Shown here one piece after another: positions 28,735 through 42,754 of a DNA stretch of 64,000 nt; the first letter of the stretch is position 1, and each line of letters begins with the position of its first letter. The DNA comes from Hyphomonadaceae bacterium. Lineage in GTDB: Bacteria; Pseudomonadota; Alphaproteobacteria; Caulobacterales; Hyphomonadaceae. A model generated the notes under the pieces. That model was not told the origin of the DNA and made no database searches. It saw only the letters and a program-made list of their open reading frames with translations. The stretch is from positions 1 to 64,000 of the forward strand of contig JANSYM010000007.1 of assembly GCA_024742355.1 (NCBI GenBank). Direction: 5' to 3'. A program made the translations under genes and the position numbers.

Positions 28735-31700
28735 TTAAGGCTGTGGCAAAGGAATGGAACCCCATTCGCCCACTCGGCCGTCATCTGAACGTGTGGCGAC
28801 ACGAATCAGGTCGGCCGTCTGGACAGGCACCGTGATCTCGGTGTCGCTCTGATCCAGCTGTGCGACGAGGGTGTCATCGAGATAGGTTTCGACGCGATAT
28901 TGCAAGTTCGCGTTCGCCTCGGTGAGCTCCCAATTGTTTGAGAAATCAGAACCACGCGGCGTCCAGCTGACCTGATGCGTTCCACCGGACCGGACGGTGC
29001 GCAAATGCCCCACGCGCCACGGCAAGGATGCATTGCCATTGAACGTGAATTCGGACGTCTCTCCATCATCAAGCCGGGCAATGAAAGTTCGGCCGATATC
29101 GTCCCGGCCAAGAGAGATTGAGACGAGCCGGTCATCTGCGAGTATGACATGGGCACCTGCCAAGACAGGTCGAACAGGACTTCCGGCGAGGCCGCGCATC
29201 AAGCCGGACAGGTGCCAGTTATCGGTGCCGACAAGGTCCGCATCTCGCCAGGCGAGCAATTCCCAGCCCGACTCGTTTTCGATCAGGATGCGGTTTCTTC
29301 CGGACAAGACCAGAGTCTCATCGGCTGAGGACAAGGTCTCGCCTGGCATATAGAGTTCAATCACGTTCGCCGCGTCCCATCGACCGAGTGGGCCGGCGCC
29401 GAAGTCCGCTGCCAATCGACCAAGACCAGCCGCCTGACGGAGCGTCGCGACGTCTGACAGGCCATCCGCTGCCATGCCGAGCTTCAATGTTGACGATCCA
29501 ATCCAGGGGTTGCTCGTCGCGGCGACGCGCAGGGCGGCTCCGTCCAGATGGTCGAGCACGGGACCATCCACAATTCTGAAGATTGGCTCTGCTGCCAGCA
29601 CCGCTGCAGGACCGGTCGACGGCGGCGTGACAGAGCGCACAGGTGAGGACGAGGTCAGCGCCGGTCGAAGACTGAGATAGCGTTGCAAGCCATGGTCTTC
29701 CAGGCGCTGAACAATCCAATGCCGGCCATCCAGCGCGACCCGGTCCAGCACCTCCAGGCCGAGCGCCTCACCTGGCGGGAGCGCCAGGCCGCGTCCATCC
29801 GTTTCCAGAATCTGAGCGAGCCATCGCTCCGCCAACACGCGCGCACGGCCGGCGCCAAGGACAATCGGATAGGTCAAACCGATCTTGAGATCCGATCCCG
29901 GATGCAAGGTTCGGGCTGCAATCACAGCCGGCTGATAGGAGCCGTCCCCCGAAATATATTGCAGCGTCACGCCGCTCGGTTGCTTGTCGAGCAGATTGCG
30001 CGTGGCCGCATAGGTGGACTCGATCATATGTTCGGGGCTGAGGGTCGCAATGGAGACGGCGCCTTCATGTGCGGCGTGAAGGCCGGCATCGGTTTCCTTG
30101 ATAGAAAACTCGTACGCATTCGTCAGCGGAGCCAGAGCCCGGTTCAGAGATGTCACCGAATCCAGCAGATACCCGTCCACGGCGCCGTTCAGCGCTCGCG
30201 CATCCAGTGAAATATCGGCCTGCGCAGCGAGATCGCCGACCAGTTCGGAAAGATCAATCAATCCCGACCGTCCATTCAGCCAATGGCCATATTGCCAGTT
30301 CGGGCCGTCGCTCCAAACCTCGTCGCGAGATGGAAAGTCCGGCCAGGGCCGGCCGTCCCAGGCCCAGTTGAGCACCTGCTCGACCATGGGCTGCGTCCGC
30401 CAGAATTCATTCGCGACCGCCAGGGCGCGGCGCTGCAACAGATCATCCCGGCCGCCATTCGAGTGACGGGGCAGCGCACTTTCAGAACTCTTCGGATCGA
30501 AGAAGACGTTCGGCGCATTGGTCCCTTTGTCGACCGCCGGTACACCGAGCTCAATCAGTCGGATTGGCTTGGACTGCGGCACCCAGGCCGTCGGCGAGGC
30601 GGCGCGCGCCCCGGCGGGACGCTCATAATGTGCCTGTCCCCACCAATTGGCGAGATCCTTCTGTCGGAACACCCAGGGCTCGCCATGCGCACCATCCTCG
30701 ATCGGCGTGCGGACCTGGGCGATGCGGTCATCGTCCGTCGCATAAAACCAGTCAAACGCCTCTCCCCCGGCCAGGTTCTGTTGCAGATAGGCCGCGTCTT
30801 CGATCCGTTCATAGCCAGCCGCAAGGTCCAGATGATCTTCGCCATCGCGCCAGTCCGACAGTGGCGGGTACCAGTCGAGCCCGACAAAATCGATCGGCTC
30901 GCACGCCCACAAAGGGTCGAGCGGAAACAGGACGTCACCGCTGCCTTCGCCGGGAACATAAGCCCCGTATTCAGTCCAGTCGGCGGCGTAGGAAATCGCG
31001 ACCTCCGGCCCGACAATGCTGCGGACTTCATGCGCAATCTCGATCAGCGCTTCAACAAATGGAAACCGCCCCTCTGCATCCCGCGCCCGCGTCAGACCGA
31101 CCATTTCCGACCCGATCAGGATCGCCTCGACACCCCCTGCCTGCACAGCCAGTCGCGCGTGATGCAGGATGAAATGCCGAAACCCGAAGCCGCCATCGTC
31201 TCCGACAAAGCTCGCGATCTCATCCCGGGCCGAGGCCGTCTGGTCCTGAACAACTGTCAGCCGCCCTCGCCAGGGAAAGGCCGCCTGTTTCGCGGCGCCA
31301 TAGGGGTCCGGCAAGCCATTGCCGCCCGGAATTTCCATCATCAGAAACGGCGACAGCGTCACCTTGAGACCGGCCGCCTTCAACGCCTGAATGCCCTCAA
31401 TCACCGCCTGATCCGCCGGCGTGCCGCCAAAATTCGGACGCCCATTGGTTTGCGAAAGCAAGTGCGCGCTGCCGCGATCGACACCACCAACCGTCCAGGC
31501 ATATGGCACGGTCGCCCGGTCGCGAATTTCAATCCCAGGCGCAATCCGGCACGATCCGGCGCGCAGGTCGGTGCCAAACCAGGCGACGGTCAGCGCCGCG
31601 TCGGTGACGCCCGGCAGGTCCCGGCCCAATTGGTCGAGCGACACGGAGAAGTCCGCATCGCCGCGGACATTGTTCATGTTCAACGGTGTCTCAATGCCGG

Positions 31701-32418
31701 GAAATCGTCGTTCGCGCACGATCGACGTCGCGTACACGAACTCGCCACTTGCCGGGATGATGTTCACGCCCCGCACAGTGCGGCTCAGACTGTCATCCGT
31801 AGCCTGCCCGGCCCGGACAATCTCGAACGACATTTGCGGCAGATGATGGCCATAGGCATCGAGCGGAAAGTCCTCGAACACGATATAGGCCGTGCCGCGA
31901 TAGGCTGGCACTGAATCGCTGCCTTCAATCGCTTCGATCAGGGGATCGGGAAGCTGCGTCTCGGTGCCGGTGTACAGGCGCCAGTTCACGCCGCTCAGCG
32001 TCACCAGTTCGCCATTCGCCCAAATCCGGTCGACCCGCGTCACCGGCCCCTGGCAGAGCGCCACCGCAAAGCTGACCGAGTAAGTGTACTCAGAATATTT
32101 CGGCCCGCCTTTGCCCGCGGATTGTTCGCTGCGATGCTCCTTGAAACGCGACGCCCAGAGCACCTGACCTCCGACGCGCATGCGGCCATACACAAGAGGT
32201 AGAACAGCGCCTTCGCGGCTCTCCATCACCTGCAGCGATTTTATCCGGGCCCCTTCTGAAGCGGGCGCCAGCGAAGCATCAATCGCGCGGCCCGCAAATC
32301 GGCCGACCCCCTCGCCAATGGCAGCGCCAGACAAGGTTTGACCAAACACACCGACACCGCCCGGGAGCAAGGCCGATCCCAGCGCGGCGCCGGCTTGCGA
32401 CAAGATGATTTCCGCCAA
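28735..32418 (-). CDS. GTA g15: host-specificity/tail-tip protein (megatron)
   Basis: 1227 residues, the largest GTA protein, forming the tail tip/baseplate. The N-terminal part carries hydrophobic, Ala/Gly-rich helices (IILSQAGAALGSALLPGGVGVFGQTLSGAAIGEG). The centre has a TIM-barrel-like glycosidase-related domain (ALIEIAHEVRSIVGPEVAISYAADWTEYG, PIDFVGLDWYPPLSDWRDG), and the C-terminal part has fibronectin-like strands. RcGTA g15 is about the same size. The start is TTG at 32416-32418 with GGGAGG nine bases before it. A strong terminator lies immediately upstream on this strand, so expression should depend on read-through, anti-termination or a hidden promoter. Confidence 0.93.
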   Translation of the reverse strand: MAEIILSQAGAALGSALLPGGVGVFGQTLSGAAIGEGVGRFAGRAIDASLAPASEGARIKSLQVMESREGAVLPLVYGRMRVGGQVLWASRFKEHRSEQSAGKGGPKYSEYTYSVSFAVALCQGPVTRVDRIWANGELVTLSGVNWRLYTGTETQLPDPLIEAIEGSDSVPAYRGTAYIVFEDFPLDAYGHHLPQMSFEIVRAGQATDDSLSRTVRGVNIIPASGEFVYATSIVRERRFPGIETPLNMNNVRGDADFSVSLDQLGRDLPGVTDAALTVAWFGTDLRAGSCRIAPGIEIRDRATVPYAWTVGGVDRGSAHLLSQTNGRPNFGGTPADQAVIEGIQALKAAGLKVTLSPFLMMEIPGGNGLPDPYGAAKQAAFPWRGRLTVVQDQTASARDEIASFVGDDGGFGFRHFILHHARLAVQAGGVEAILIGSEMVGLTRARDAEGRFPFVEALIEIAHEVRSIVGPEVAISYAADWTEYGAYVPGEGSGDVLFPLDPLWACEPIDFVGLDWYPPLSDWRDGEDHLDLAAGYERIEDAAYLQQNLAGGEAFDWFYATDDDRIAQVRTPIEDGAHGEPWVFRQKDLANWWGQAHYERPAGARAASPTAWVPQSKPIRLIELGVPAVDKGTNAPNVFFDPKSSESALPRHSNGGRDDLLQRRALAVANEFWRTQPMVEQVLNWAWDGRPWPDFPSRDEVWSDGPNWQYGHWLNGRSGLIDLSELVGDLAAQADISLDARALNGAVDGYLLDSVTSLNRALAPLTNAYEFSIKETDAGLHAAHEGAVSIATLSPEHMIESTYAATRNLLDKQPSGVTLQYISGDGSYQPAVIAARTLHPGSDLKIGLTYPIVLGAGRARVLAERWLAQILETDGRGLALPPGEALGLEVLDRVALDGRHWIVQRLEDHGLQRYLSLRPALTSSSPVRSVTPPSTGPAAVLAAEPIFRIVDGPVLDHLDGAALRVAATSNPWIGSSTLKLGMAADGLSDVATLRQAAGLGRLAADFGAGPLGRWDAANVIELYMPGETLSSADETLVLSGRNRILIENESGWELLAWRDADLVGTDNWHLSGLMRGLAGSPVRPVLAGAHVILADDRLVSISLGRDDIGRTFIARLDDGETSEFTFNGNASLPWRVGHLRTVRSGGTHQVSWTPRGSDFSNNWELTEANANLQYRVETYLDDTLVAQLDQSDTEITVPVQTADLIRVATRSDDGRVGEWGSIPLPQP

Positions 32419-32435
32419 TGTTCCAGACCTCCCAT

Positions 32436-32469
32436 AGAAAAAGACCGGTCAGCGAACTGACCGGTCTTT
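32436..32469 (-). terminator. Rho-independent terminator inside the GTA cluster
   Basis: AAAGACCGGTCAG (32440-32452) and CTGACCGGTCTTT (32457-32469) form a perfect 13-bp stem with loop CGAA. On the minus strand it is followed by a run of T residues (complement of 32438-32442). It closes the DM13 gene 22 bases after its stop and lies just before the g15 ribosome-binding site. Confidence 0.88.
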
Positions 32470-32491
32470 CTGATTGATGATTGTGTTGGGC

Positions 32492-32926
32492 TTACAGGTT
32501 GCCGCCGCCCCAAAGGACCGAATAGGCCTCGCAATGCACGAGCACGCTGCCATAGGCCGACAGGTCGACGCCGGCGGGCACTTCATATTCCTGCGTGCCT
32601 TTGGTCTTTTTCAGCTCACCAATGTTGAGCGACCCGTCCACGGCGTTCTTGCCGGTGGCGTCGGCCACGCTTTTTGGCGACAGGAAGATTTTCAGGTCCG
32701 GGCCTTTGGCGGCGCGGAAGTCGTCCGCAAAGACGATGAAGGTCTTGCCGTCGCGCTCGACGACAGACCAGGAGCCCTTGAGCTTCTTGGACTTCTTGAT
32801 GAAGTCGCCGGATGTCGAAAAGGCCGCTTGTTGGGCAATTGTCGACTGGGCGATCACCGGTGCGGCGGTCATCATGCCGGTCATTCCCATGGCCAGGGCA
32901 GCGAAGGCAGCGTGTGTCAGTTTCAT
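32492..32926 (-). CDS. Secreted DM13-domain protein inserted between g14 and g15
   Basis: 144 residues: a signal peptide (MKLTHAAFAALAMGMTGMMTAAPVIA|Q) and one DM13 domain (AAFSTSGDFIKKSKKLKGSWSVVERDGKTFIVFADDFRAAKGPDLKIFLSP to VHCEAYSVLWGGGNL). DM13 domains are proposed cytochrome-like or redox-associated beta folds. A Cys (VHCEAYS) is the only cysteine. It does not belong to any known GTA gene set. It carries its own terminator and a 67-base leader, so it looks like an independent unit dropped into the structural operon. Role in GTA biology unknown. Confidence 0.85.
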   Translation of the reverse strand: MKLTHAAFAALAMGMTGMMTAAPVIAQSTIAQQAAFSTSGDFIKKSKKLKGSWSVVERDGKTFIVFADDFRAAKGPDLKIFLSPKSVADATGKNAVDGSLNIGELKKTKGTQEYEVPAGVDLSAYGSVLVHCEAYSVLWGGGNL

Positions 32927-32993
32927 GTTCGTCTCCAGGTGTGTGATGCGTCTCGATGCAGCCCATCTAGAAACGCCCGTGAACAAGTGCCAA

Positions 32994-33455
32994 TCACCCT
33001 CGATCACAGGGCTGTGCGCGTTCTGTGAGCCGGCATTCGGGGAACGCGAACGCCGCCGCGATCCGTCGCTCCCACCAGGGCACCAGGCGCGTTTCACACA
33101 CCGCCTTGCCCCAATAGGCATGAATGATGCGCGCCTCGCCCGAGACGATGGCGCAATGTTTCGCCGGATGCCCGAGGCCCATTCGGAACAAAAAGACATC
33201 GCCGGGTTGCGCCGTGGAAATTGCAATCTCGCGCAAGTGCCGGCGCGCCGCTTCGAGCAAGGTGTCCTGCTTCAGCGCTTCGGCCCAGTCCGGCGTGTAG
33301 GCCGGAACGGTCTCAGGCTCGTCGCCGAAAACTTCGCGCCAGACACCGCGTAGCAAGCCCAGACAATCAGTGCCGACCTGCTTCTTGCTGGCCTGATGTC
33401 GATAGGGCGTGCCGATCCATGTCCGTGCCTCTGACAGGATCTGCGCGCGACTCAT
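32994..33455 (-). CDS. GTA g14: NlpC/P60 cell-wall peptidase
   Basis: 153 residues. Catalytic Cys31 lies in QVGTDCLGLLRGVW and the His in GLGHPAKHCAIVSG, with a further His in ARIIHAYWGKAV. This matches the NlpC/P60 peptidase of GTA and phage baseplates, which cuts peptidoglycan during DNA delivery. It overlaps g13 as ATGA. The gene that follows is the inserted DM13 gene rather than g15. Confidence 0.93.
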   Translation of the reverse strand: MSRAQILSEARTWIGTPYRHQASKKQVGTDCLGLLRGVWREVFGDEPETVPAYTPDWAEALKQDTLLEAARRHLREIAISTAQPGDVFLFRMGLGHPAKHCAIVSGEARIIHAYWGKAVCETRLVPWWERRIAAAFAFPECRLTERAQPCDRG

Positions 33456-34096
33456 CTTTGCCCCCCATCATTATTCGCGGCGGCCGGCCCTGACAGAATG
33501 AAGTCATTGCCAGGCATGTGCGGGAAGCCGCGAAAATTCTCGCTATTGGAAAAGACATCCCGGCAGGTTTCGAAGCGCTGGTCGCAGCTCCGTCCCAGCG
33601 CCGCAATACCGCACCGTGCATCGCCGAGCACCGCATCACAGCGCCGTTGCAGCACGCGGCCAACGGGACGCTCGAGATCGGATTTCAGCGACACCAGGTC
33701 GGCTTCAAACTGTCCGGTCTCATTCAGCCTGACCTCGCTCAGATAGCCGCTCCAGACATGTCTCTGCCCAGCCTCGGGCGTGGTCCAGTCCGCCTGATAG
33801 ACGTCGAGGCGGCACCCGTCCCACAATCCGTTTGCAAGGTCGTCAGCTGAAATCGCATCGCTCGAGAGGACGCCTCCGCCAGCACCCTGCCCCGGTTTCA
33901 ACCCGTCACTCTGCGTGAAACGGCCGGCCTCGATGGCGCCGCCCGGTTGATAGGTCACGCCCGCCAGCGTGAGCGCCACGTCGTGATCGGTCACACCGAT
34001 CCGGGCGCCATCACGGCGCGTCAGACGCCAGCACAGGCAGAGCGTCGTCGCCGCGCTCTTTAAACGCACCGCGAGCGCTTCGGAAATGTCTTTCAT
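33452..34096 (-). CDS. GTA g13: baseplate hub protein (DUF2163 / BR0599 family)
   Basis: 214 residues with the DUF2163 core (LCLCWRLTRRDGARIGVTDHDVALTLAGVTYQPGG). The phage BR0599-type cysteine-rich C-terminus contains CDAVLGDARCG, SCDQRFETCRDVFSNSENFRGFPHMPGND. In RcGTA the conserved cysteines of g13 bind an iron-sulphur cluster in the hub; four Cys with suitable spacing are present here. Starts 8 bases after the g12 stop. Confidence 0.93.
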   Translation of the reverse strand: MKDISEALAVRLKSAATTLCLCWRLTRRDGARIGVTDHDVALTLAGVTYQPGGAIEAGRFTQSDGLKPGQGAGGGVLSSDAISADDLANGLWDGCRLDVYQADWTTPEAGQRHVWSGYLSEVRLNETGQFEADLVSLKSDLERPVGRVLQRRCDAVLGDARCGIAALGRSCDQRFETCRDVFSNSENFRGFPHMPGNDFILSGPAAANNDGGQR

Positions 34097-34104
34097 CGCA
34101 CCCT

Positions 34105-34719
34105 CTAGACCAGTTCGATCAGCGTCACGCTGACGATGCGTCCCGCACCAAATGCCTCGATCACGGCATTGATCTGGTCGGTCTCGAACCGAACGGGGCA
34201 GTCAAATTTGAACCCGGCCCGCACCACGGCGCCTGATGGGGGCGCAGTGTCGAACGCGATCTCGCCAGTATCTGTCGACACCGACCAACCGGTACTCTGT
34301 TCAACGCCATCTACAGAAACGCGTGCCGTGCCATCGACGGGCTTAGTGATGGTGCGCTTGACGGCGCCATACCATTTGCACAGCTGGAACGTGGTTTGTG
34401 TGCCGTCGCCGACGCCCAGAACCTGATCGCCTGCGCCTGGCTCAGTCCCGGCATCCGCGCTCGAATAATCAAGCGGATCGCGAAAACGAAACCCATACAG
34501 GCGCCCCATGCGGGCTTCGAAAAAGCTGATCAGTGTCTGCAAATCCTGCACACTCGACACAGCGCCGCCGACATCCCACCGGCGCCTTGAACGCGACCAT
34601 TTCGCGTTGCGCACCTCCTGGCCGCTGGCCAGGGTGACAATCTCCGTGCGTCGCTCCGGTCCGCCCGCGGCGCCGAGCGCCAGGGGCATCGGGAAGCTGA
34701 CCTCATGAAACGCCGTCAT
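34105..34719 (-). CDS. GTA g12: distal tail protein (DUF2460)
   Basis: 204 residues beginning FHEVSFPMPLALGAAGGPERRTEIVTLASGQEVRNAKWSRSRRRWDVG, the highly conserved N-terminus of DUF2460/TIGR02217 proteins. It ends in the beta-strand set GAVVRAGFKFDCPVRFETDQINAVIEAFGAGRI. It forms the ring linking tail tube and baseplate hub in GTA particles. ATGA overlap with the tape-measure gene. Confidence 0.94.
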   Translation of the reverse strand: MTAFHEVSFPMPLALGAAGGPERRTEIVTLASGQEVRNAKWSRSRRRWDVGGAVSSVQDLQTLISFFEARMGRLYGFRFRDPLDYSSADAGTEPGAGDQVLGVGDGTQTTFQLCKWYGAVKRTITKPVDGTARVSVDGVEQSTGWSVSTDTGEIAFDTAPPSGAVVRAGFKFDCPVRFETDQINAVIEAFGAGRIVSVTLIELV

Positions 34720-35087
34720 GTGAACCGCCCGCCTCTGGCGGCTGCAACCGCGACAGCATTCGCGATCGTACTGGCGCTGCCGATCGCGGCGGATTGGCCA
34801 GCCCCAACCGACATGTTCAGATTAACCGTCTGACGGACCCGGCCAAGCCCGGACTGTGCGATCACGGCCTCGGCGGCAATGCGCGCCAGATCGCTCAAAA
34901 TGGATTCGGCCATGCGGCGAAAATCGGTTTCGCCGGACCGCGCAGCACGGCCAAGGGCCTGTTCAATGCTCGCGCCGGCGCGTCCGAAAGCCTGTTCCAG
35001 GACCGCGGCCGCTTCCTGACCGGGTCCTTCGACCAGGCGGGTCAGGCTCTCGCTCGCCGCTTGCAGTTCAGCTTCAAAATCATCCAT
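34716..35087 (-). CDS. GTA g11: tape-measure protein (short form)
   Basis: 123 residues, mostly alpha-helical and Ala-rich (ESLTRLVEGPGQEAAAVLEQAFGRAGASIEQALGRAARS). A C-terminal hydrophobic stretch follows (GAGQSAAIGSASTIANAVAVAAARGG), as in GTA and lambda-type tape-measure proteins. It is clearly shorter than the roughly 220-residue RcGTA protein I recall, which predicts a shorter tail. It overlaps the upstream chaperone gene by 8 bp. Confidence 0.85.
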   Translation of the reverse strand: MDDFEAELQAASESLTRLVEGPGQEAAAVLEQAFGRAGASIEQALGRAARSGETDFRRMAESILSDLARIAAEAVIAQSGLGRVRQTVNLNMSVGAGQSAAIGSASTIANAVAVAAARGGRFT

Positions 35088-35256
35088 CGGGATGGGCCTC
35101 CATCAGGGATTTCAGGATTGCGGCATCGAAATCAGGCTTTGGCGACGTGGTCAGCCACAACCATTCGCGCACCGACAATTTCCAGAACGCGTCAGGTGCG
35201 AGGCCGCGCGCGACCGCCATCTGCAGCATTTCAGCCCAGGGCAGCATGAAACGCAT
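35080..35256 (-). CDS. GTA g10.1-like tail assembly chaperone
   Basis: 58 residues: MRFMLPWAEMLQMAVARGLAPDAFWKLSVREWLWL and a short acidic tail. This is the TIGR02216-type tail assembly chaperone of GTAs and related phages, recognised by its WxLSVxEW core. The start at 35256 overlaps the previous gene's end by 26 bp, which recalls the frameshift or overlap arrangements between the two tail chaperones in many siphophages. Confidence 0.85.
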   Translation of the reverse strand: MRFMLPWAEMLQMAVARGLAPDAFWKLSVREWLWLTTSPKPDFDAAILKSLMEAHPDG

Positions 35257-35506
35257 CCGCAATGGCGCGGGCGGCCTCGAGGGGAGCGACGCGCTCCATC
35301 GCAATCTTCGCCCCCGCACCTTTGGCCAGGATGGCCAGCACCTTGGTGAGCTCCGTTGCTGACAAGTGTTTCAAGCGCAATTGCAGGTCGGTCAGGGACT
35401 GGCAGCCAAAGGCATGCTCCAGCTCTGCCAGTCCGCCGAGCGTGAGGCAGAGTGGCACTTCAGCCCCGTCGACCGTCAGCACCGTTTCACCCCGCGCCGC
35501 GTTCAT
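35231..35506 (-). CDS. GTA g10: tail assembly chaperone
   Basis: 91 residues with the GTA-family core LTVDGAEVPLCLTLGGLAELEHAFGCQSLTDLQLRLKHLSATELTKVLAILAKGAG. These chaperones bind the tape measure and tube monomers before tail polymerisation. Start overlaps the tail tube stop as ATGA. Confidence 0.88.
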   Translation of the reverse strand: MNAARGETVLTVDGAEVPLCLTLGGLAELEHAFGCQSLTDLQLRLKHLSATELTKVLAILAKGAGAKIAMERVAPLEAARAIADAFHAALG

Positions 35507-35922
35507 CCTTCCGCCTCGAAGGCCAGCGCCCCGGCGCTTTCCAGGTCGACCGAAAATCGCGCTTCGCCATCAAACACGCCGCCCCATTTCAGTTCACGAA
35601 TGTGCAATGGTCCGGTCAGGACTCCGAGCCCCGGAATAATCAACTTCCACGTGGCGATCGCGCCCGAGAAGAAAATGTCCTGCATGCGCTGGTCGCTTTC
35701 GGCATCCTTGAACACACCCTGGCCGCGCACACGGGCGGATTTCACACCCGCCCCGGCGATGAGTTCGCGCCACCCGCCCGGGCTTTCTGCCGATGTGCCA
35801 TCGACGCTCTGTGCGTTGAGTTCAATATCGCTGGAGCGGATGCCTGCGAGGGTGACAAAACTCTCGGGGACAGCGCCGTCAGATATCTTGATCAGGACAT
35901 CGCGTCCTTTTTGCCCGGCCAT
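35503..35922 (-). CDS. GTA g9: major tail (tube) protein
   Basis: 139 residues: MAGQKGRDVLIKISDGAVPESFVTLAGIRSSDIELNAQSVDGTSAESPGGWRELI is the signature of the TP901-1/GTA tail tube family. The rest is beta-rich (LIIPGLGVLTGPLHIRELKWGGVFDGEARFSVDLESAGALAF). GGAGG lies seven bases before the start at 35922. Confidence 0.94.
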   Translation of the reverse strand: MAGQKGRDVLIKISDGAVPESFVTLAGIRSSDIELNAQSVDGTSAESPGGWRELIAGAGVKSARVRGQGVFKDAESDQRMQDIFFSGAIATWKLIIPGLGVLTGPLHIRELKWGGVFDGEARFSVDLESAGALAFEAEG

Positions 35923-35924
35923 GT

Positions 35925-36353
35925 TCAGACCTCCTCTGTCACGATGCGGACCCGCATGACGCCGCGCAGCACCTGGCGATTCGGCGCGCGCATGACGTCC
36001 GAATAGGTCGGATGAACCAGGATGACGCGTTGGCGCGACAGGGTGAGCTCCATGCGCTGCACGGCCGATCGCAGCGTTGCGAGAAGCGCTTTCGCCTCGG
36101 TCTGCCCGCCCGCACGCGACAGGGTCGCAAATTGCAGGCGATGCTCTGCACCGCACACGCTGGCGGCACTGGCATCGCGGCGTTCGCAACGCTCCAGCAC
36201 CACATAAGGAAACAGGGCGGCCCGGGTCTCGTCATCAAAAATCCGCGCCGGTGATCCCAATAAGGTCTGCAAGTCGGCATCCGCGCGCAAGGCAGCAAGG
36301 ATTTGCTCGATCAATTCCACATCGGAAATGCCTGCGCTCAAGTCGAAGCTCAT
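35925..36353 (-). CDS. GTA g8: tail terminator/connector protein (DUF3168)
   Basis: 142 residues with the DUF3168 pattern (ILAALRADADLQTLLGSPARIFDDETRAALFPYVVLERCERRDASA, then VILVHPTYSDVMRAPNRQVLRGVMRVRIVTEE). It joins tail tube and connector. It directly follows g6 with an ATGA overlap; no g7 gene separates them. Confidence 0.92.
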   Translation of the reverse strand: MSFDLSAGISDVELIEQILAALRADADLQTLLGSPARIFDDETRAALFPYVVLERCERRDASAASVCGAEHRLQFATLSRAGGQTEAKALLATLRSAVQRMELTLSRQRVILVHPTYSDVMRAPNRQVLRGVMRVRIVTEEV

Positions 36354-36922
36354 AACCGCACCTCCCGTCGCGCTTCGAGAATGGCGCGGACCTCTTCTGG
36401 CAGTGCCCCGCTCGCCCCGAACGCAAAAGCGGCTGGCGCGCGCGCCGCATACAGCACGCCGGCCAGCCGCAGGATCGCTTCTTTCAGGTCTTCCGGAACA
36501 TCAGACGCCGTTCCATAGCCAGCCTGATACGTCACTTCGATCTGTTCGTCCGCGGCAATCACCGGCAATTGGCTCCAGGGCCGCAATCCGAGACGCCCGC
36601 AATCGAGACGAAAGCGATCGGTATGATCGGTCACGTCGCCCGCTTCAGCCACAATCACGACCGAGATGAGCGAAACGGCCGGGCGGCGCGGCAGCAAGGC
36701 CCCGCGCCCGGCCAATACTGACGGCCAGGCCTGCCAGTCGACCCGGAGCGTCTGCGCGATGAAGGCCAGCCCAGCCGCCTGCTCGATCCGCGCCCGGGCG
36801 CTTTGAATGAACCGCGTGACCAGATCATCCTCGCCATCATGCCCGATGCGCAGGAATTGTTTTGCCGCGGCGAGCGTTACAGGCTCCTCCGCTGGCGGCG
36901 ATATCACCGTCAGGTCTGTCAT
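36350..36922 (-). CDS. GTA g6: head-tail adaptor protein
   Basis: 190 residues: PVTLAAAKQFLRIGHDGEDDLVTRFIQSARARIEQAAGLAF is the typical 'phage gp6 / phiE125 gp8' N-terminus. The C-terminal part (PEDLKEAILRLAGVLYAARAP) follows. It docks onto the portal. It starts 40 bases after the capsid stop. Confidence 0.92.
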   Translation of the reverse strand: MTDLTVISPPAEEPVTLAAAKQFLRIGHDGEDDLVTRFIQSARARIEQAAGLAFIAQTLRVDWQAWPSVLAGRGALLPRRPAVSLISVVIVAEAGDVTDHTDRFRLDCGRLGLRPWSQLPVIAADEQIEVTYQAGYGTASDVPEDLKEAILRLAGVLYAARAPAAFAFGASGALPEEVRAILEARREVRL

Positions 36923-36962
36923 GGTCTTCGACTTTGCTTGATTGGAACGCGGATGCGGTGAC

Positions 36963-38138
36963 CTAGAAGGTCAACACTTTGAAGGCGTCGAAATTCTGGA
37001 TGCCGCCGCCGACTCTCTTGGTCGTGTAGAACAGGACATAGGGCTTGGACGAATAGGGATCGCGCAGCACGCGCGCGCCTTGCCGGTCGGCAATCAGATA
37101 GCCACGGCGAAAATCGCCAAAAGCGATGGCCGCATTGCCGGATGCCATGTCCGGCATGTCTTCCAGTTCGGTGACCGGATAGCCGAGCACCGTCGATGCT
37201 TCTCCGGCAGCGCCGGGTGCCCAGAGATATCTACCGTCCGCATCTTTCAGTTTTCGCACGCTCGCGGTCGTGCGCCGGTTCATCACGAAGCGGCCATTGA
37301 CGCGAAACTGCGATTTCGGCGCATGGATGAGGTCGATCAGCTGGTCACCGGCATCGGTGACAGTGAAATCACCGTCCAGAGACCCGATCTTGCCCCAGGC
37401 ATGATTGGCGTCGCTGACAATCGTATAATCGAGGAAACCGCGCGGCTTGCCGACCCCATCTCCGGAGACGAAGGCCGCACTCTCCTGGACGCTGAAGGCG
37501 GTTTCCACCTCCTCAGCCAGCCAGGCATCGATGTCGGCATAGGCATCGTCCAGCAATGTCTGGGTTGCGGCGGGCATGGCGTAGAGTTCGCCGGCCGGGA
37601 ATTCCAGCAGCTCCAGCCCATCCGTCGTGGTTTGCGTCCGGGTGTCTGTTTCACCCGTCCATTGCGCCCCGACGCCGAGCGAGACCGGCTTGCGATAGGT
37701 TCCGGCTGAGGTCTGGCGCACCGTCGCGATCTGGCGCATCGGCGAGGATTGCAACAGGCGCGACTCGATCATGCGGTCGAGCTCCGGCGGGGCGACATAG
37801 CCGCCCTGCTCATCCGTGCCCGCCGAGAGGGCTTTCGTGTCCAGCCGCGCCAGGCCGCTTTCATCGCCGGTGCGCAAGTATCTCGCCCAGGCCGTCTGAG
37901 GGGCGTCATGTGGCTGCGGCTCAGCCTGGGCTTCCGGCTGCGCGGCTTTCAGGCTCAGCGTGTCGAGACGCTTGTCCATGCGCTCGAGCTTGTCCTGCAG
38001 CACGGTGTCGACCGCGCCTATTTGCTCAAGCTCGGTCAACCGCGCCTCATTGGCGGCCTTAAAGGCTTCGAATGTCGCCATCAGATCGGCGGCGATGGAT
38101 TTGACTTCGCCCGTCAGGGCCTTGGTTTCCTTGGTCAT
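36963..38138 (-). CDS. GTA g5: HK97-fold major capsid protein
   Basis: 391 residues. The N-terminal 100 or so form a charged, coiled-coil-like scaffolding part (IAADLMATFEAFKAANEARLTELEQ), normally removed by the prohead protease. The HK97-fold capsid domain starts around GGYVAPPELDRMIESRLLQSSPMRQIATV and ends FLFYTTKRVGGGIQNFDAFKVLTF-like, the usual phage capsid C-terminus. It should build the GTA head that packages random genomic DNA. Confidence 0.96.
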   Translation of the reverse strand: MTKETKALTGEVKSIAADLMATFEAFKAANEARLTELEQIGAVDTVLQDKLERMDKRLDTLSLKAAQPEAQAEPQPHDAPQTAWARYLRTGDESGLARLDTKALSAGTDEQGGYVAPPELDRMIESRLLQSSPMRQIATVRQTSAGTYRKPVSLGVGAQWTGETDTRTQTTTDGLELLEFPAGELYAMPAATQTLLDDAYADIDAWLAEEVETAFSVQESAAFVSGDGVGKPRGFLDYTIVSDANHAWGKIGSLDGDFTVTDAGDQLIDLIHAPKSQFRVNGRFVMNRRTTASVRKLKDADGRYLWAPGAAGEASTVLGYPVTELEDMPDMASGNAAIAFGDFRRGYLIADRQGARVLRDPYSSKPYVLFYTTKRVGGGIQNFDAFKVLTF

Positions 38139-38162
38139 TTTTTCTCCTTCAGACCCAGATTT

Positions 38163-38582
38163 TCAGACAAGCTCGAAACGGGCAGCCGGCTGCATCGGCT
38201 CCGCCACCAGTGAAATTTCCACGAGCTCCACATCGATCAGCACGCGCCCGCCGGTCGGTCGCGGCGTCCACAGGCGCGGGCGAAACCCGATCGACAGGCC
38301 GTCAAGCCCGGTGCGCGCCAGATGGGCAGCGACGTCGCGCTCAATCAGGCCGCGCACGAACAGGCCCTGGCCCGTCTCCGTCAGGCGCACCCAGCGCCCG
38401 ACGACGGAACCCGTGCGGTGTTGCAACAGCATAGGCGGCGGCGCGTCTCGCAGGGTTCGCGCAAACGCCCCGGCGCGGACCACGTCGCCAGACAGGTCCT
38501 CGCGCCCGAACAGGCTGGCATAGCCCTCGATCAGGGACGGTCGCTCTGCCATTGCCCGAGGCGCGGTTGGCGCCGCGATCAC
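38163..38582 (-). CDS. GTA g4: HK97-family prohead protease
   Basis: 139 residues with the U35-type serine protease residues: His in PPMLLQHRTGSVVGRW and Ser in GLDGLSIGFRPRLW. It removes the capsid scaffolding part during maturation. The segment IEGYASLFGREDLSGDVVRAGAF is a family hallmark. ATGA overlap with the small gene upstream. Confidence 0.94.
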   Translation of the reverse strand: MIAAPTAPRAMAERPSLIEGYASLFGREDLSGDVVRAGAFARTLRDAPPPMLLQHRTGSVVGRWVRLTETGQGLFVRGLIERDVAAHLARTGLDGLSIGFRPRLWTPRPTGGRVLIDVELVEISLVAEPMQPAARFELV

Positions 38583-38800
38583 AGATTTTCCACCTTGTTC
38601 TCGATCCGCTCGAGCTGGGCCTGCACGGCCAGCAATCCGGTTTCCAGACGGGCCAGGCGCTCCGCCGCCGAGGCCTGCGCTTCGACCCGATCCTCAAGCG
38701 CCGATATGCGCTGCGCCGCGGCTCCGGCCCAGACCAGCACGCCGCCGGTTTGCACCGCCAGCGCGAGCAGAACTGCAGCGCTGAATTTCTTCTCGATCAT
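38579..38800 (-). CDS. GTA g3.5-position small membrane/coiled-coil protein
   Basis: 73 residues: one membrane segment (about 6-28, FSAAVLLALAVQTGGVLVWAGAA) followed by a heptad-rich coiled coil (ISALEDRVEAQASAAERLARLETGLLAVQAQLERIENKVENL). It sits between portal and protease, the slot of the RcGTA gene g3.5, whose function is unknown. Overlaps both neighbours by 4 bp. Shape resembles inner-membrane spanins, but this is only an analogy. Confidence 0.8.
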   Translation of the reverse strand: MIEKKFSAAVLLALAVQTGGVLVWAGAAAQRISALEDRVEAQASAAERLARLETGLLAVQAQLERIENKVENL

Positions 38801-39915
38801 GTGCCCGCCTCCAGGCCGAGCATGGCGCGTTTCTCGGCGTCACTGAGAAAATCAGAGGCCGAGACGCGGGCCCAGAGGGCATCGCGGTCCGCCGCGAAAG
38901 CCGGAACCTGGTCGAGCACGGGGGTGACGCAGACGGCGTCAAACCGGCCGCGCAGCCAGACACTCAGAGCGTTCGCCGTTTTCTGCACCAGAGGCAGAAC
39001 CGTTAGCCGCCAGAAAGCGGAATGGGCTTCCTTATAGGTCGCATACGTATTGTCGCCGGGAATGCCGAGCAACATAGGCGGGACGCCAAAGGCCAGCGCA
39101 ATTTCCCGCGCCGCCGCGTGGCGGGTTTCGGCATAATCCATCTCGGCCGGTGACAGGCTCATCGGTTTCCAGTCGAGGCCGCCCTCCAGCAGCAGCGGCC
39201 GGCCAGCATTGGCGGCGCCGGTATGTTCGGCGGTCAGCTGCGTTTTCAGGCGCTCGAATTGTTCATCCGTCAGCCGCGCGCCGTCCTTGCCATACATCAG
39301 AGCGCCGGATGGCCGGGCCGCATTGTCGAGCAAGGCCTTGGCCCACGCCGCGGTGCCATTGTGCATGTCGAGCGCGCGGCGCGCCGCCGACAAGGGCGAC
39401 AGGCCATAGGCGCTGCCGCCCGGGTGATAGAGTTTCAGGTGCAACACCGGCGACCAGCCATCGGCGGCCTTGCCAATCAGGCGCTCGCCGCGTTTCTGCC
39501 GCAGCGCATAGCCGGAGACATGCCCGCGCTCATCCAGCCGGACCGTCACCGCATCCGCGCGCAGCCCGAACAGGCCGCGCGGCGCCTGTTCGCCGGTCAG
39601 CGTCACCGCTTCGGCCCAGGCATTCCCGGTGACCTGCAAGTCAATATAGAGCTGCTCCAGCAGCGCCTGCCCGGACTGGTCTGGCGATGGCTCATCGAGC
39701 AATCTCTGCGCCGCATCATCCCCGCACTCAAACGCGATCGAGGCAGCGGCTTCGGCAATCATCCGGGCGCAGCGATAGACAATGGCATTGCCGGCATAGC
39801 CGTCGCGCACCAGGGTCGCCGGGTCGGTCTGGCCCCAGACCGCGCCAGGCAGGCTGGCCAGCGCAATCCAGGCGCCGCCACTTTTTTCATCTGGTTTTGA
39901 CCAGGGCAGCTTCAT
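38797..39915 (-). CDS. GTA g3: portal protein
   Basis: 372 residues of the HK97-type portal family: GYAGNAIVYRCARMIAEAAASIAFE at the N-terminus, DLQVTGNAWAEAV, LKLYHPGGSAYGLSPLSAARRALDMHN in the middle and the signature ARHAAAREIALAFGVPPMLLGIPGDNTYATYKEAHSAFW. The portal forms the dodecameric DNA entry ring. Its start faces the divergent parA-like gene, so the terminase genes are cut off from the rest of the operon by the insertion. Confidence 0.95.
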   Translation of the reverse strand: MKLPWSKPDEKSGGAWIALASLPGAVWGQTDPATLVRDGYAGNAIVYRCARMIAEAAASIAFECGDDAAQRLLDEPSPDQSGQALLEQLYIDLQVTGNAWAEAVTLTGEQAPRGLFGLRADAVTVRLDERGHVSGYALRQKRGERLIGKAADGWSPVLHLKLYHPGGSAYGLSPLSAARRALDMHNGTAAWAKALLDNAARPSGALMYGKDGARLTDEQFERLKTQLTAEHTGAANAGRPLLLEGGLDWKPMSLSPAEMDYAETRHAAAREIALAFGVPPMLLGIPGDNTYATYKEAHSAFWRLTVLPLVQKTANALSVWLRGRFDAVCVTPVLDQVPAFAADRDALWARVSASDFLSDAEKRAMLGLEAGT

Positions 39916-40107
39916 GCGCCTCTCCGGTAATCGCTAGGGTTCTCAACGCTATGGAACCTAGCCCCGCCGCGACCCCGCCGGATTCGTTTCCGGTTTCTTA
40001 AGTTTTTTCAGGCGATTTGAACGGTATTGAGAGTACTGGTTCCCCACCGAAACCGCGTGGGCAGCGTAAATTCCTGACATCGGTACGAAAAACGGAGAGG
40101 GGGCTTT
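39916..40107. promoter_or_regulatory. Divergent promoter region between portal gene and parA-like gene
   Basis: 192 bases without a gene. An imperfect dyad CTAGGGTTC ... GGAACCTAG spans 39934-39961 and is an operator candidate close to the portal start. An AT-rich stretch around 39996-40010 could hold promoter elements. GGAGAGGGGG precedes the parA ATG. A GTA activator such as GafA could act here, but no site can be named. Confidence 0.5.
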
Positions 40108-41016
40108 ATGCTCGGACGGGTCATATCCGTCGCCAATTCAAAAGGCGGCGTCGGCAAAACAACCACCACAGTCTCACTGGCAGAGGCATTTGCGGCAGAA
40201 GGGTACAAGACGCTGGTCGTTGACCTCGACAGCCAGGCCAATGCCTCTCTGCTGATCTATGGGGAGAATGGTGACGAGCGCCTGTATGACGCGATCCACA
40301 ATTACACCAATGTCTCCGACTATCTGCGCGAGAACTTTCTCGGTGAATGTTTCGCGCACATGACCAAATTCATCGTGCCGCATGCCAGCGACGTCTCCTT
40401 CATGGGCAAGCCGCTCGATCTGTCGCTGGTGCCGGCAACACCAGGCCTGCGCCGGGCTGAGCGGGAACTCATCTATATCCTGACCGAGCAAGGCTATTCG
40501 ATGACCGCAATTGAAGGCCGCGTCGGCCTGCGCCTGCGCCAGGACATGGCCGATCTGCGCAAGCAGTATGACGTCATCATCTGCGACTGCCCGCCAGGCA
40601 TCTCGGCGATGACGGAAGCGACGCTGTCCGCCTCTGACCTGATCATCGTGCCGACCATACCTGATTTCATGTCGACCCTTGGTCTCGACCTGTTCACTGG
40701 CGACATCATTGACAGTCTCAAGAAGCGCGGCCTGTCCAACCGGCCGGTGGTCCTGCCAACCAAATTCGATGGCTCGGCGCATCAGAGCATCGTGCTCGAC
40801 GCGATGCGCGACGGGGCCAATGATCCGGACAGCGAATATGACATCTTCCAGACCGTCATCCCGCAAAAATCGGACTTCGCCGCCAACCCGGTCGAGCTCG
40901 GCGCCAATCCGACCCTGGCGCAAAAGTGGCCAGGGGATGCGCTCGCCACGGTGAATATGCTATATCAGGAAGTGCAAGCCCGACTCGCGGCACAATCCAA
41001 ACCGGCAGCAGCTTAA
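40108..41016 (+). CDS. ParA/Soj-type partition ATPase embedded in the GTA cluster
   Basis: 302 residues. The deviant Walker A motif SKGGVGKTTTT (residues 11-21) has the signature Lys12 needed for ATP-dependent dimerisation. Walker A' is VVDLDSQANAS and the switch/Walker B region is DVIICDCPPGIS. ParA-family ATPases bind nucleoid DNA non-specifically and move plasmids, chromosome origins, carboxysomes or chemosensory clusters. This one lacks an N-terminal DNA-binding helix-turn-helix, as in Soj and McdA types. It lies on the opposite strand to the GTA genes, with a small partner gene 5 bases downstream and no parB or parS nearby, so chromosome partition is unlikely. Cargo unknown. Confidence 0.92.
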   Translation: MLGRVISVANSKGGVGKTTTTVSLAEAFAAEGYKTLVVDLDSQANASLLIYGENGDERLYDAIHNYTNVSDYLRENFLGECFAHMTKFIVPHASDVSFMGKPLDLSLVPATPGLRRAERELIYILTEQGYSMTAIEGRVGLRLRQDMADLRKQYDVIICDCPPGISAMTEATLSASDLIIVPTIPDFMSTLGLDLFTGDIIDSLKKRGLSNRPVVLPTKFDGSAHQSIVLDAMRDGANDPDSEYDIFQTVIPQKSDFAANPVELGANPTLAQKWPGDALATVNMLYQEVQARLAAQSKPAAA

Positions 41017-41021
41017 AAATC

Positions 41022-41447
41022 ATGGCCCTAATACCAGACGGACGTGCCGCACTCTCAGCGATCCTCGCTCATGAGACCCAGTTCCCGCGCGTCAAGGATT
41101 CTGACCTCTCAGCGGCAGCGATCAAGCTCGCGCGCAAACAGATCATTGCTGCGGGCCTGACCCGTGACGACCTGCTGCAACTGAAAGCCACACTCGGCGA
41201 CGACATGTTCGAGAAAACGCTCGACAGTCTGACGCCCTATCACGTCAAACTGCTCGCCCGGCGGCTGGACAAGACAGCGGCGGAAATCGAAGTGAATACA
41301 GGCAGCTCGGCCCTGTCTCATGTTCGCAAAGTCCTCACCGGTGACGTCGCCCCGTCCGACACCCCTGCCGCGTCAGCTGATGACACCCCTGCCGCGCCGA
41401 AGAAGAACAAGTATCTCGGTCGCAAGGCGTTTCGCACCGGGCGCTAG
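41022..41447 (+). CDS. Putative ParA partner/cargo adaptor with basic C-terminal tail
   Basis: 141 residues, not recognised as any named family. Residues 1-100 look like a compact helical domain (KLARKQIIAAGLTRDDLLQLKATLGDDMF, TPYHVKLLARRLDK). Residues 108-126 are a Pro/Ala/Asp linker with a duplicated DTPAA block, encoded by a 15-bp DNA repeat. The end is strongly basic (KKNKYLGRKAFRTGR). ParA partners such as ParB and McdB often use a basic terminal peptide to stimulate ATP hydrolysis, and this layout fits. It has no ribosome-binding site of its own, so it is probably translated by coupling to the ATPase gene. Its TAG stop shares CTAG with the terminase stop. Confidence 0.75.
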   Translation: MALIPDGRAALSAILAHETQFPRVKDSDLSAAAIKLARKQIIAAGLTRDDLLQLKATLGDDMFEKTLDSLTPYHVKLLARRLDKTAAEIEVNTGSSALSHVRKVLTGDVAPSDTPAASADDTPAAPKKNKYLGRKAFRTGR

Positions 41448-42754
41448 AGCGCGCGAATACGTGGTCCGCGACCCGCCAGCAACAAGGCACTGATGGCCCA
41501 GACCAGGGCATCGACCCGGTCCGGTGAGCCGACAAACCCCTCGGTCCCGAACCGGCACATTTCATCTTCCAGCGCGTTCAGCTCCCCGACATGTGAAATC
41601 CGGTTCTGCTCATACAGGGCCGCCACTGGCATCGCTCGTCCGCGTTTGCCGAGGCGGGCATGGACCAGATCGACCGGCACATCGCAGGCCACGCTGTCGA
41701 ACACTGTGCGCAGCATTTCGCCGCCCTGATTGGACTCGGCGATGATGCGTGATGCCCCACAGTCGCGGGCCAGGCTGGCGGCCCGTGCGGCCCAGTCAGA
41801 CGGCGTCAGACCGCGCGCCGTGGCGTCGGCCAGGACAAAGCCGTGTGGGCGAAAGCCGGGCGGACACGCCGCGCCGGCGGCGACAATGCCGCACGCGTCA
41901 GAGCGGCGATGGCTGGTCACTGGCGGGTCGACGGCGACGATCACATCCTCGAGCTGAGGCGGCGCGATCGCGACGCGGTTTTTGTCAATGTAATGGCGCT
42001 TCCACAGCGCGCCCTCGATATCTTCCACCAGCTCGCCCTCGAGTTCCTGGCGGGCCAGCGCGGTACCGGCGAAAGCTGCTTCGACACTGTCGACGAAGCC
42101 TGGCGAGAGGTGGTCGACATTGTCCCGCGTGGCGCTGTGCGTGACCACCGCCTCGCCACCCATCAAACGCCTGACCAGGCGCACGGGCCGCGGCGTGGTC
42201 GTCGCCACGCAGCGCGGCGACTCGCCTAGGCGCAAACCGAACTGCAGATTGTTCCACACGCTTTCGCCATCGGCCCAGACACCAATCTCGTCGCACCAGG
42301 CGGCATCGAATTGCGGGCCACGCAAACTGTCCGGGTCTTCCGCAGAGAAGACCAGGCCGACGGCGCCATTCGGCCATTCCAGCCGCCGCCGGGAGACGCT
42401 GTATTGCGGACACTGAGCGAGCACAGGCTCAATCCGCCGCAAGCCGGATGGCCCTTCAATCATAACTTCACGCGCATCGCTGAGGGTTGGTCCGACCAGC
42501 GCAATCCGCCGGCAGCCGCCCAGCAAGGCGGCATAGCGCGTCCATTCCGCCCCGGCCCGCGTTTTACCAGCGCCGCGTCCCCCGATGAACAGCCAGGTCC
42601 GCCAGGTCCCCTGCGGGGGACGCTGCGCCGGACGCGCCAGACGCAGAAATGGAAAGCGGTACACGATATCCGCGTAAGACCGGTCAATCAGGTCGTCGGA
42701 TACGAATTCTCTGTCCCACCAGGGTTTCCAATTCGCGCTGTAATTGCTCGTCAC
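41444..42754 (-). CDS. GTA g2: terminase large subunit
   Basis: 436 residues. The ATPase domain has Walker A FIGGRGAGKTRAGAEW and Walker B AAWCDEIGVW. The RNase H-like nuclease domain has IVAVDPPVTS, with further acidic residues in ISHVGELNALEDEMCRF. It packages host DNA by headful into GTA heads. GTG start at 42754 with AAGGAG at ideal distance, overlapping g1 by 71 bases. The stop overlaps the convergent ParA-partner stop. Confidence 0.95.
   Translation of the reverse strand: MTSNYSANWKPWWDREFVSDDLIDRSYADIVYRFPFLRLARPAQRPPQGTWRTWLFIGGRGAGKTRAGAEWTRYAALLGGCRRIALVGPTLSDAREVMIEGPSGLRRIEPVLAQCPQYSVSRRRLEWPNGAVGLVFSAEDPDSLRGPQFDAAWCDEIGVWADGESVWNNLQFGLRLGESPRCVATTTPRPVRLVRRLMGGEAVVTHSATRDNVDHLSPGFVDSVEAAFAGTALARQELEGELVEDIEGALWKRHYIDKNRVAIAPPQLEDVIVAVDPPVTSHRRSDACGIVAAGAACPPGFRPHGFVLADATARGLTPSDWAARAASLARDCGASRIIAESNQGGEMLRTVFDSVACDVPVDLVHARLGKRGRAMPVAALYEQNRISHVGELNALEDEMCRFGTEGFVGSPDRVDALVWAISALLLAGRGPRIRAL

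Follow-up and report, generated by a model that had tools for sequence, protein, structure and literature searches.

A gene transfer agent (GTA) operon that carries two genes on its opposite strand raises a simple question: do these genes serve the virus-like particle, or the cell that harbors it? The locus lies in the window analysed here, a stretch of 64,000 nucleotides from the genome of a Hyphomonadaceae bacterium, where the genes for a ParA-type ATPase of 302 residues (40108..41016, plus strand, called from its ORF and Pfam matches) and a partner protein of 141 residues (41022..41447, plus strand, called as an ORF) sit head-on between the terminase large subunit gene g2 (41444..42754, minus strand) and the portal gene g3 (38797..39915, minus strand) of an RcGTA-type cluster. 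The remaining head-tail genes of the cluster, namely protease, capsid and g6-g15, and also a DM13 gene, occupy 28735..38582 on the minus strand, and the flanking minus-strand genes have RcGTA-like family matches (Terminase_6N/6C, Phage_portal, Peptidase_S78, Phage_capsid, the GTA-gp10 tail tube protein, GTA_TIM and Rcc01698_C). ORFs and Pfam matches agree with the initial annotation in its description of a plus-strand two-gene module that splits a minus-strand GTA operon between g3 and g2. That annotation went on to propose that the two proteins space GTA procapsids or packaging sites on the nucleoid, or link particle assembly to chromosome position. Such a role is not supported: among 55 loci, 21 have an intact pair and no capsid gene, and there too ParA is conserved much as rpoB is. 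The reading that we favor, with a probability of about two in three, takes the pair to be a ParA/partner system of the cell, specific to a few lineages, that has become lodged in the GTA operon and works independently of the GTA.

The terminase and partner genes overlap by 4 bp at their ends, and the portal and parA genes diverge from an intergenic region of 192 bp (39916..40107). The better start for the partner is the ATG at 41022, which gives the 141-residue product; a longer ORF that begins with GTG at 40926 overlaps parA. Translational coupling is suggested by 21 Hyphomonas loci in which the last 4 bp of parA, including its stop, are shared with the start of the partner gene. The DM13 gene of the cluster encodes a protein with a DM13 electron-transfer domain (32492-32929, minus strand; Pfam 2.5e-15) and lies between g14 and g15, a position that it also holds in three other genomes (G085, G026 and G224); a homologue is found close to the pair at both G135 loci (G135a, G135b) and in G056.

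The ATPase matches Pfam AAA_31 (4.4e-34) and CbiA (2.6e-20) and contains the sequences SKGGVGKTTT (with K12) and DCPPG, which we take to be the deviant Walker A motif and a Walker B-like motif, respectively. Residues K12-K17 and D160-G164 are invariant in the 27 ParA sequences aligned, out of 29 in the sample, and the intact ParA deviant Walker motif with signature lysine that had been noted at the outset is indeed present. The window's ParA is 94-98% identical to six of the seven other aligned Henriciella copies (85% in G026), 60-63% identical to those of Hyphomonas, where the ORF ends at 294 residues with a normal TGA stop, and 62% identical to that of a third genus, g272. The window's genome has a single copy of each pair gene. 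Its other ParA-like proteins are Soj, encoded beside a ParB-like gene on another contig (L003), and an orphan ParA, and further proteins were assigned by motif to the MipZ, CpaE, FlhG and Mrp types; no ParB-like gene adjoins the pair, as the initial annotation had stated. The orphan, of 307 residues (G000:C3:264488-265159; L002 1492-2415), is without an obvious partner and has as neighbors an RluD-like and a sugar-transferase-like gene, both labeled by eye.

An alignment of 29 partner sequences reveals a conserved domain (about residues 1-105), a Pro/Ala/acidic linker whose length and sequence both vary, and a second conserved part at the C-terminus. This C-terminal peptide is KNKYLGRKAFRTGR (residues 128-141) in the window's protein and has the consensus Y[FL]GR[KR][SA]FR[TA]. 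Among the 18 invariant columns, Y131, G133, R134, F137 and R138 fall within the last 11 residues, and four members end right after ...FRT. The strongly basic C-terminus pointed out in the initial annotation contains the conserved part of the tail, its last ~10 residues, and the basic peptide is kept in 29 of 29 partners; the duplicated DTPAA block reported for the linker does occur twice in the window's protein, whereas the duplication is not found in the other aligned members. The partner family seems to be undescribed. No Pfam or NCBIfam family exceeds its cut-off with the partner, no match was obtained in PHROGs or PADLOC, and no ParB family in Pfam, NCBIfam or PHROGs matches it, so that the known ParB or toxin-antitoxin identity for which the initial annotation had allowed did not materialize. 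Weak matches to Pfam DIMCO_N do recur, in 20 of the 29 members (best 6.5e-5; 20.8 bits for the window's protein against a cut-off of 36.7), and a PDB profile search gave chance-level matches only (best E 0.31). The accessible parts of the literature on GTAs with ParA, Hyphomonas and Hyphomonadaceae, including PMC6821227, PMC7200025 and PMC6650430, do not describe the pair; subscription papers fall mostly outside this scope, and the silence of these sources is not proof of absence.

The region upstream of parA has conserved elements of its own. An octamer, CAAATCTG, is found 47-55 bp before parA in 34 of the 37 Hyphomonas loci with 150 bp upstream (a count that leaves out G205, with 27 bp only), and it is present whether the capsid gene is missing (19 of 21 loci) or kept (15 of 16). 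An alignment of the Henriciella copies identified a different block, TTTCTTAAGTTTTTTCAGGCGA (39994..40015, plus strand), which is identical in G065 and G135a, altered in G085, G150, G056 and G135b, and unrecognisable in G026, and which is also retained where the GTA has been lost; the block pattern has a single match in the window and none in 100 shuffles. Because these elements are kept without the GTA, the pair probably has its own promoter. A consensus scan found no sigma-70-like promoter in the 192-bp region, and a full CtrA site (TTAA-N7-TTAA) was considered and rejected, with none within 150 bp upstream of parA in 49 loci (one with 27 bp).

The pair is confined to a few lineages. Among 105 genomes of the family, searched with a related ParA, it is present in 41 of the 42 Hyphomonas genomes, in 10 of the 29 from Henriciella (19 are without it) and in two of three members of genus g272; under the cut-offs applied, the pair-type ParA turned up in no other genus of the family. 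Of 249 genomes sampled from the order, 29 have the partner: 7 belong to Henriciella and 21 to Hyphomonas, and the remaining one, G055, gives a weak match (E 6e-4) that has no ParA next to it. ParA at E<=1e-100 is found in the same 28 Henriciella and Hyphomonas genomes. The small partner is co-inherited with ParA. In a class-wide sample of 289 genomes, strong matches to either profile were limited to the window's genome and one Hyphomonas, a partner match in G471 being at chance level (0.0097). At least 44 loci in public genome contigs encode ParA at 55-98% identity, with the next identity among the matches listed at 33%, and the best 15 of 1141 plasmid records matching ParA are only 26-35% identical.

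The surroundings of the pair were assessed from GTA gene coverage at 55 loci, representing all 53 bearer genomes. Where terminase and portal both remain beside the pair, it sits head-on between them, and the recurrence of this g2/g3 position in three genera (Hyphomonas, Henriciella and g272) answers the call for synteny made in the initial annotation. All eleven core GTA genes are present in 13 loci; two others, in G080 and G555, have lost no core gene at the locus except the terminase, and about 13 kb separates terminase and pair in G021. At the other extreme, the capsid gene is absent from 21 loci despite at least 11.9 kb of coverage on the portal side, and the pair is intact there (ParA coverage at least 0.96, partner at least 0.74). 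Another 19 loci are partly decayed, or ended by a contig or stretch boundary. The decayed loci retain traces of the operon: a portal or protease stump abuts a piece of g15 in G065, G150, G170 and G115, and a terminase stump is left in G135a, G056 and G105. Furthermore, many loci of both large genera share their host neighbors beyond the portal side, among them (by eye) a DnaJ-like gene and a response regulator/sensor pair, and some of these neighbors are also found at intact loci, so the GTA genes were lost on the spot while the pair stayed. Since the pair remains intact in many species with a decayed GTA, it most likely serves the cell rather than the virus-like particle.

The junction between terminase and portal appears to have received other genes as well. 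In eight Henriciella loci that lack the module, a gap of 66-195 bp separates the terminase match from the portal match. In genus g4 the junction contains, on the GTA strand, a 302-residue trypsin-like peptidase gene in G110 (5.3e-11; L134 5844-6752) and a 295-residue ORF without family in G165 (L133 5742-6629). The pair-bearing locus of G051 has two extra genes on the terminase side of the pair, for a transposase (1.6e-18) and an acetyltransferase (5.2e-13; L107 4758-6051). The g2/g3 junction is thus a site for accessory genes, and these other inserts fit the idea that the site is permissive and the pair a passenger there.

Counts across whole genomes lead in the same direction. A GTA capsid gene (E<=1e-40) is present in 66 of the 105 family genomes, distributed as 27 of 53 bearers (with only an 84-residue fragment in G552) versus 39 of 52 non-bearers (Fisher p 0.015), and in the 89 better genomes as 22 of 46 versus 34 of 43 (p 0.004); the contrast is phylogenetically uneven, with Hyphomonas dominating the bearers, and some absences may be assembly gaps. 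Within Henriciella, the capsid is missing in 5 of 10 bearers versus 4 of 19 non-bearers, a difference that is not significant (Fisher p 0.20). With 26 of 53 bearer genomes and 21 of 55 loci lacking the capsid gene, the presence of the pair does not depend on an intact GTA. The initial annotation had named, as an outcome that would refute its proposal, a pair found mostly away from GTAs, and this has proved true in part, in that the same 26 bearers are capsid-less. One Hyphomonas genome, G200, has neither terminase (E<=1e-60) nor capsid (E<=1e-40), and H. jannaschiana (L174) and H. atlantica (L147) are examples of GTA-intact species. Six genomes of the three genera (G549, G537, G543, G140, G544 and G574) are missing both pair and capsid, which may reflect joint loss, and two others (G224 and G545) keep the capsid and lack the pair.

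ParA is under strong purifying selection, whether or not the GTA survives. Its dN/dS values are 0.00-0.061 in 16 genome or copy pairs, compared to 0.014-0.067 for rpoB in 15, and 0.020-0.058 in the five genome pairs in which both members are capsid-less; several dS values in this analysis are saturated. The corresponding values are 0.085-0.20 for terminase, 0.00-0.12 for portal and 0.02-0.11 for capsid (with one of 0.33 at dS 0.01), while a g15 value of 1.97 for G001-G006 is a misalignment artefact. ParA falls below terminase in seven of seven shared pairs, and the tightest GTA genes overlap ParA. The partner evolves with dN/dS of 0.08-0.41 overall (two pairs saturated), from 0.08-0.11 in Henriciella (the window's genome versus G065 and versus G135a) to 0.27-0.35 in four capsid-less Hyphomonas pairs; capsid-bearing Hyphomonas pairs give 0.10-0.25 in four of five cases and 0.41 in the fifth. 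The higher values in capsid-less Hyphomonas could mean that constraint on the partner is relaxed there, and they speak against the reading that we favor in its simplest form. Near-universal presence in Hyphomonas, constraint like that of rpoB and indifference to the state of the GTA together argue against a GTA-positioning role.

A single ancestral insertion, inherited vertically and later lost in places, would fit the ratio of ParA to rpoB protein distance, which is 1.9 and 2.25 inside the two large genera and 2.7 when one is compared with the other. The rpoB data reject a single clade of bearers (p-AU 1.8e-9) and also a clade of Hyphomonas with a 13-genome Henriciella group (p-AU 0.0018), both in tests without g272, so that the pair was either ancestral with repeated loss or transferred between lineages.

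Relatives of the pair are found elsewhere in the order. The nearest outside ParAs found (group A) come from 11 loci in Caulobacterales family f3. In four of these loci (L250, L252, L253 and L254) the ParA is 34-38% identical (34-37% in L252-L254) and a small protein with a basic C-terminal tail is encoded directly downstream, as in the pair; the other seven show no such partner. Three of these small proteins (L252-L254) are homologues of the partner, with about 90 aligned columns. Each alone scores weakly against the partner profile (E 4e-5 to 0.04, in a small set), while a profile comparison is clear, with E 3e-6 and a score of 41.7, against 16.7 for the best of 100 column shuffles and 9.8 for the reversed profile. 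The differences are a distinct C-terminal peptide, the lack of GTA genes in the surrounding stretches apart from a weak g9 match in L252, and a roadblock-like third gene in L252-L254. A second set (group B; L255-L262 and L266, in genera g3 and g4 and family f3) consists of an orphan ParA, which along most of the protein is 31-36% identical, with a partner of 122-169 residues that ends in RxxRDxKxFxY. The partner gene follows parA directly in eight loci, and the one other locus is cut by a contig end. The group B partner shows no detectable homology to that of the pair (hhalign probability 0.3, and the relationship was rejected), and the three scanned match no family over cut-off. Group B ParA is present in relatives without the pair, in genera g3, g4, g6 and g271 (63-100% to the query, with one partial match at 88%), and no genome among those listed has both it and the pair-type ParA. 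In a tree with 12 of the 29 pair-type ParAs, from which L004, L005 and L007 were left out, pair-type, group A and group B ParAs form three supported clades.

One alternative is a different function, in which the pair would be a regulator or polarity factor whose ATPase is a MipZ-type switch that positions no cargo. The order ParA - partner - roadblock-like gene in L252, L253 and L254 would suit such a role, the third gene matching Robl_LC7 over cut-off in L253 (= G142; 5.2e-7), just under it in L252 (0.00045) and being recognised by eye in L254, and the window's ParA scores above the Pfam MipZ cut-off (45.8 bits against 20.7, best stretch 5-54), far below its AAA_31 match. Against this, no roadblock match was found in 11 Hyphomonas/Henriciella genomes, an argument weakened by the failure of the same search to detect the genes of L252 and L254, and the genome's own Soj and MipZ-like proteins (the latter, L006, labeled by motif) are far from the pair-type ParA in the tree, outside the three clades on long branches. 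We regard this alternative as unlikely, while giving it some weight.

A selfish or addictive module, resembling a toxin-antitoxin system or a partition relic, could also have invaded the operon and hastened its decay. In favor are the head-on split of the operon, the transposase gene next to the pair in G051 and a higher rate of capsid loss in bearers, in that Dollo reconstruction on an rpoB tree placed 18 capsid losses in bearers over 2.89 branch-length units versus 7 in others over 5.47 (p 1.8e-4), for 72 of the 105 genomes, 41 of them bearers, selected by the analyst. Second copies of the pair exist in G135 (L099, G135:C5) and G560 (L373, G560:C435); the two G135 copies differ by dS 0.65, with a ParA dN/dS of 0.016. 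A toxin-antitoxin or defence identity was nevertheless rejected, in that no toxin, antitoxin or defence family was matched beyond generic P-loop matches of ParA (PADLOC PDC-M28B, residues 11-41), and the ParA/rpoB distance ratios fit descent. A selfish origin is accordingly rather improbable. Our claim goes no further than the independence of the pair from the GTA, whose loss it may hasten.

The case for positioning of GTA procapsids or packaging sites on the nucleoid draws on two facts that also count against our preferred reading, namely the constant g2/g3 position in three genera and the higher partner dN/dS in capsid-less Hyphomonas. Our reading has further points against it: both g272 bearers (G573 and G575; ParA 62%, partner 42-48%) have a full GTA in the same arrangement, pair and capsid may be lost jointly, most Henriciella manage without the pair, and a partner is seen at only four of the 11 group A loci. 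The positioning proposal can also call upon 27 IMG/VR contigs with the ParA (L217-L243), of which 27 have portal, 26 capsid, 11 terminase and 21 the partner within the stretch, but that collection selects virus-like contigs, and these are GTAs filed as viruses. The 18 capsid losses without loss of the pair, the 21 capsid-less loci that keep it, the lower frequency of capsid in bearers, the orientation of the pair opposite to the GTA genes with an upstream element that outlives them, and a ParA constrained like rpoB and tighter than terminase leave this proposal largely refuted as the main function and very improbable overall. Least probable of all is a partition system left from the phage ancestor of the GTA, which the location in a phage-derived cluster and the best PHROG match (phrog_164, a ParA-like phage partition family, 3e-45) might recommend, but which is rejected on the closely spaced terminase and portal of module-less Henriciella, the failure to find the pair-type ParA, under the cut-offs applied, in the rest of the family, the distance of phage ParAs (26-35% identity in the best 15 of 24 matching phage records) and nearest relatives around which, in 20 cases, no GTA gene occurs except weak g9 matches in L252 and L265.

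The pair is most simply read as a cellular ParA/partner system. The layout of domain, tether and basic peptide in the partner resembles that of ParA partners already described. ParA, for which ATP-dependent dimerisation and nucleoid binding are expected, would in its ATP-bound form dimerise and sit on the nucleoid, and the conserved partner domain would bind a cargo. The flexible linker would allow the partner to reach the ATPase, the basic C-terminal peptide would trigger ATP hydrolysis and release, and a cargo, presumed here to exist, would thereby be spaced or moved. The C-terminal peptide could also bind something other than ParA. Genes that recur next to the pair are GTA genes or ordinary-looking host genes. 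The McdAB system for carboxysome positioning likewise has a ParA-type ATPase and a small partner, and in McdB a short terminal peptide with key lysines binds McdA; according to the accessible text of that report (PMC12204374), McdB uses its N-terminus, in contrast to the C-terminal peptide of the pair's partner. McdA itself matches the ParA profile at only 3e-4. Soj/ParB-parS of the same genome shares the ParA motifs, and its ParB begins SRLGKGLSALIG, which by eye is loosely like YLGRKAF of the partner, but the pair's partner matches no ParB family and its ParA is only about 32% identical to Soj.

The cargo could lie in the budding cycle of Hyphomonas, with the pair acting as a new ParA-based transport or positioning system that, for instance, moves or holds a polar complex or DNA in the bud or where the stalk begins, although we consider this specific version of a cellular role a long shot. 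In H. neptunium, one origin segregates through the stalk in a second step whose mechanism is called unknown in the accessible part of PMC6650430, where chromosomal ParA is also considered unlikely to drive the DNA transfer through the stalk. The same source describes the stalk as having no DNA scaffold, which argues against a nucleoid-based ParA inside it and makes the stalk base or the bud a likelier site.

For studies of gene transfer agents, the locus illustrates how a function assigned from gene neighborhood can be misleading when the neighborhood is a virus-like cluster, and that the comparison of intact with decayed clusters separates a passenger from a component. The GTA-less relatives form a natural series that makes the question directly testable. 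Hyphomonas, a genus with a laboratory model of stalked budding in which the transport of DNA via the stalk is unexplained as far as the accessible text of PMC6650430 goes, gains a near-universal ParA that is conserved like rpoB and has a dedicated partner.
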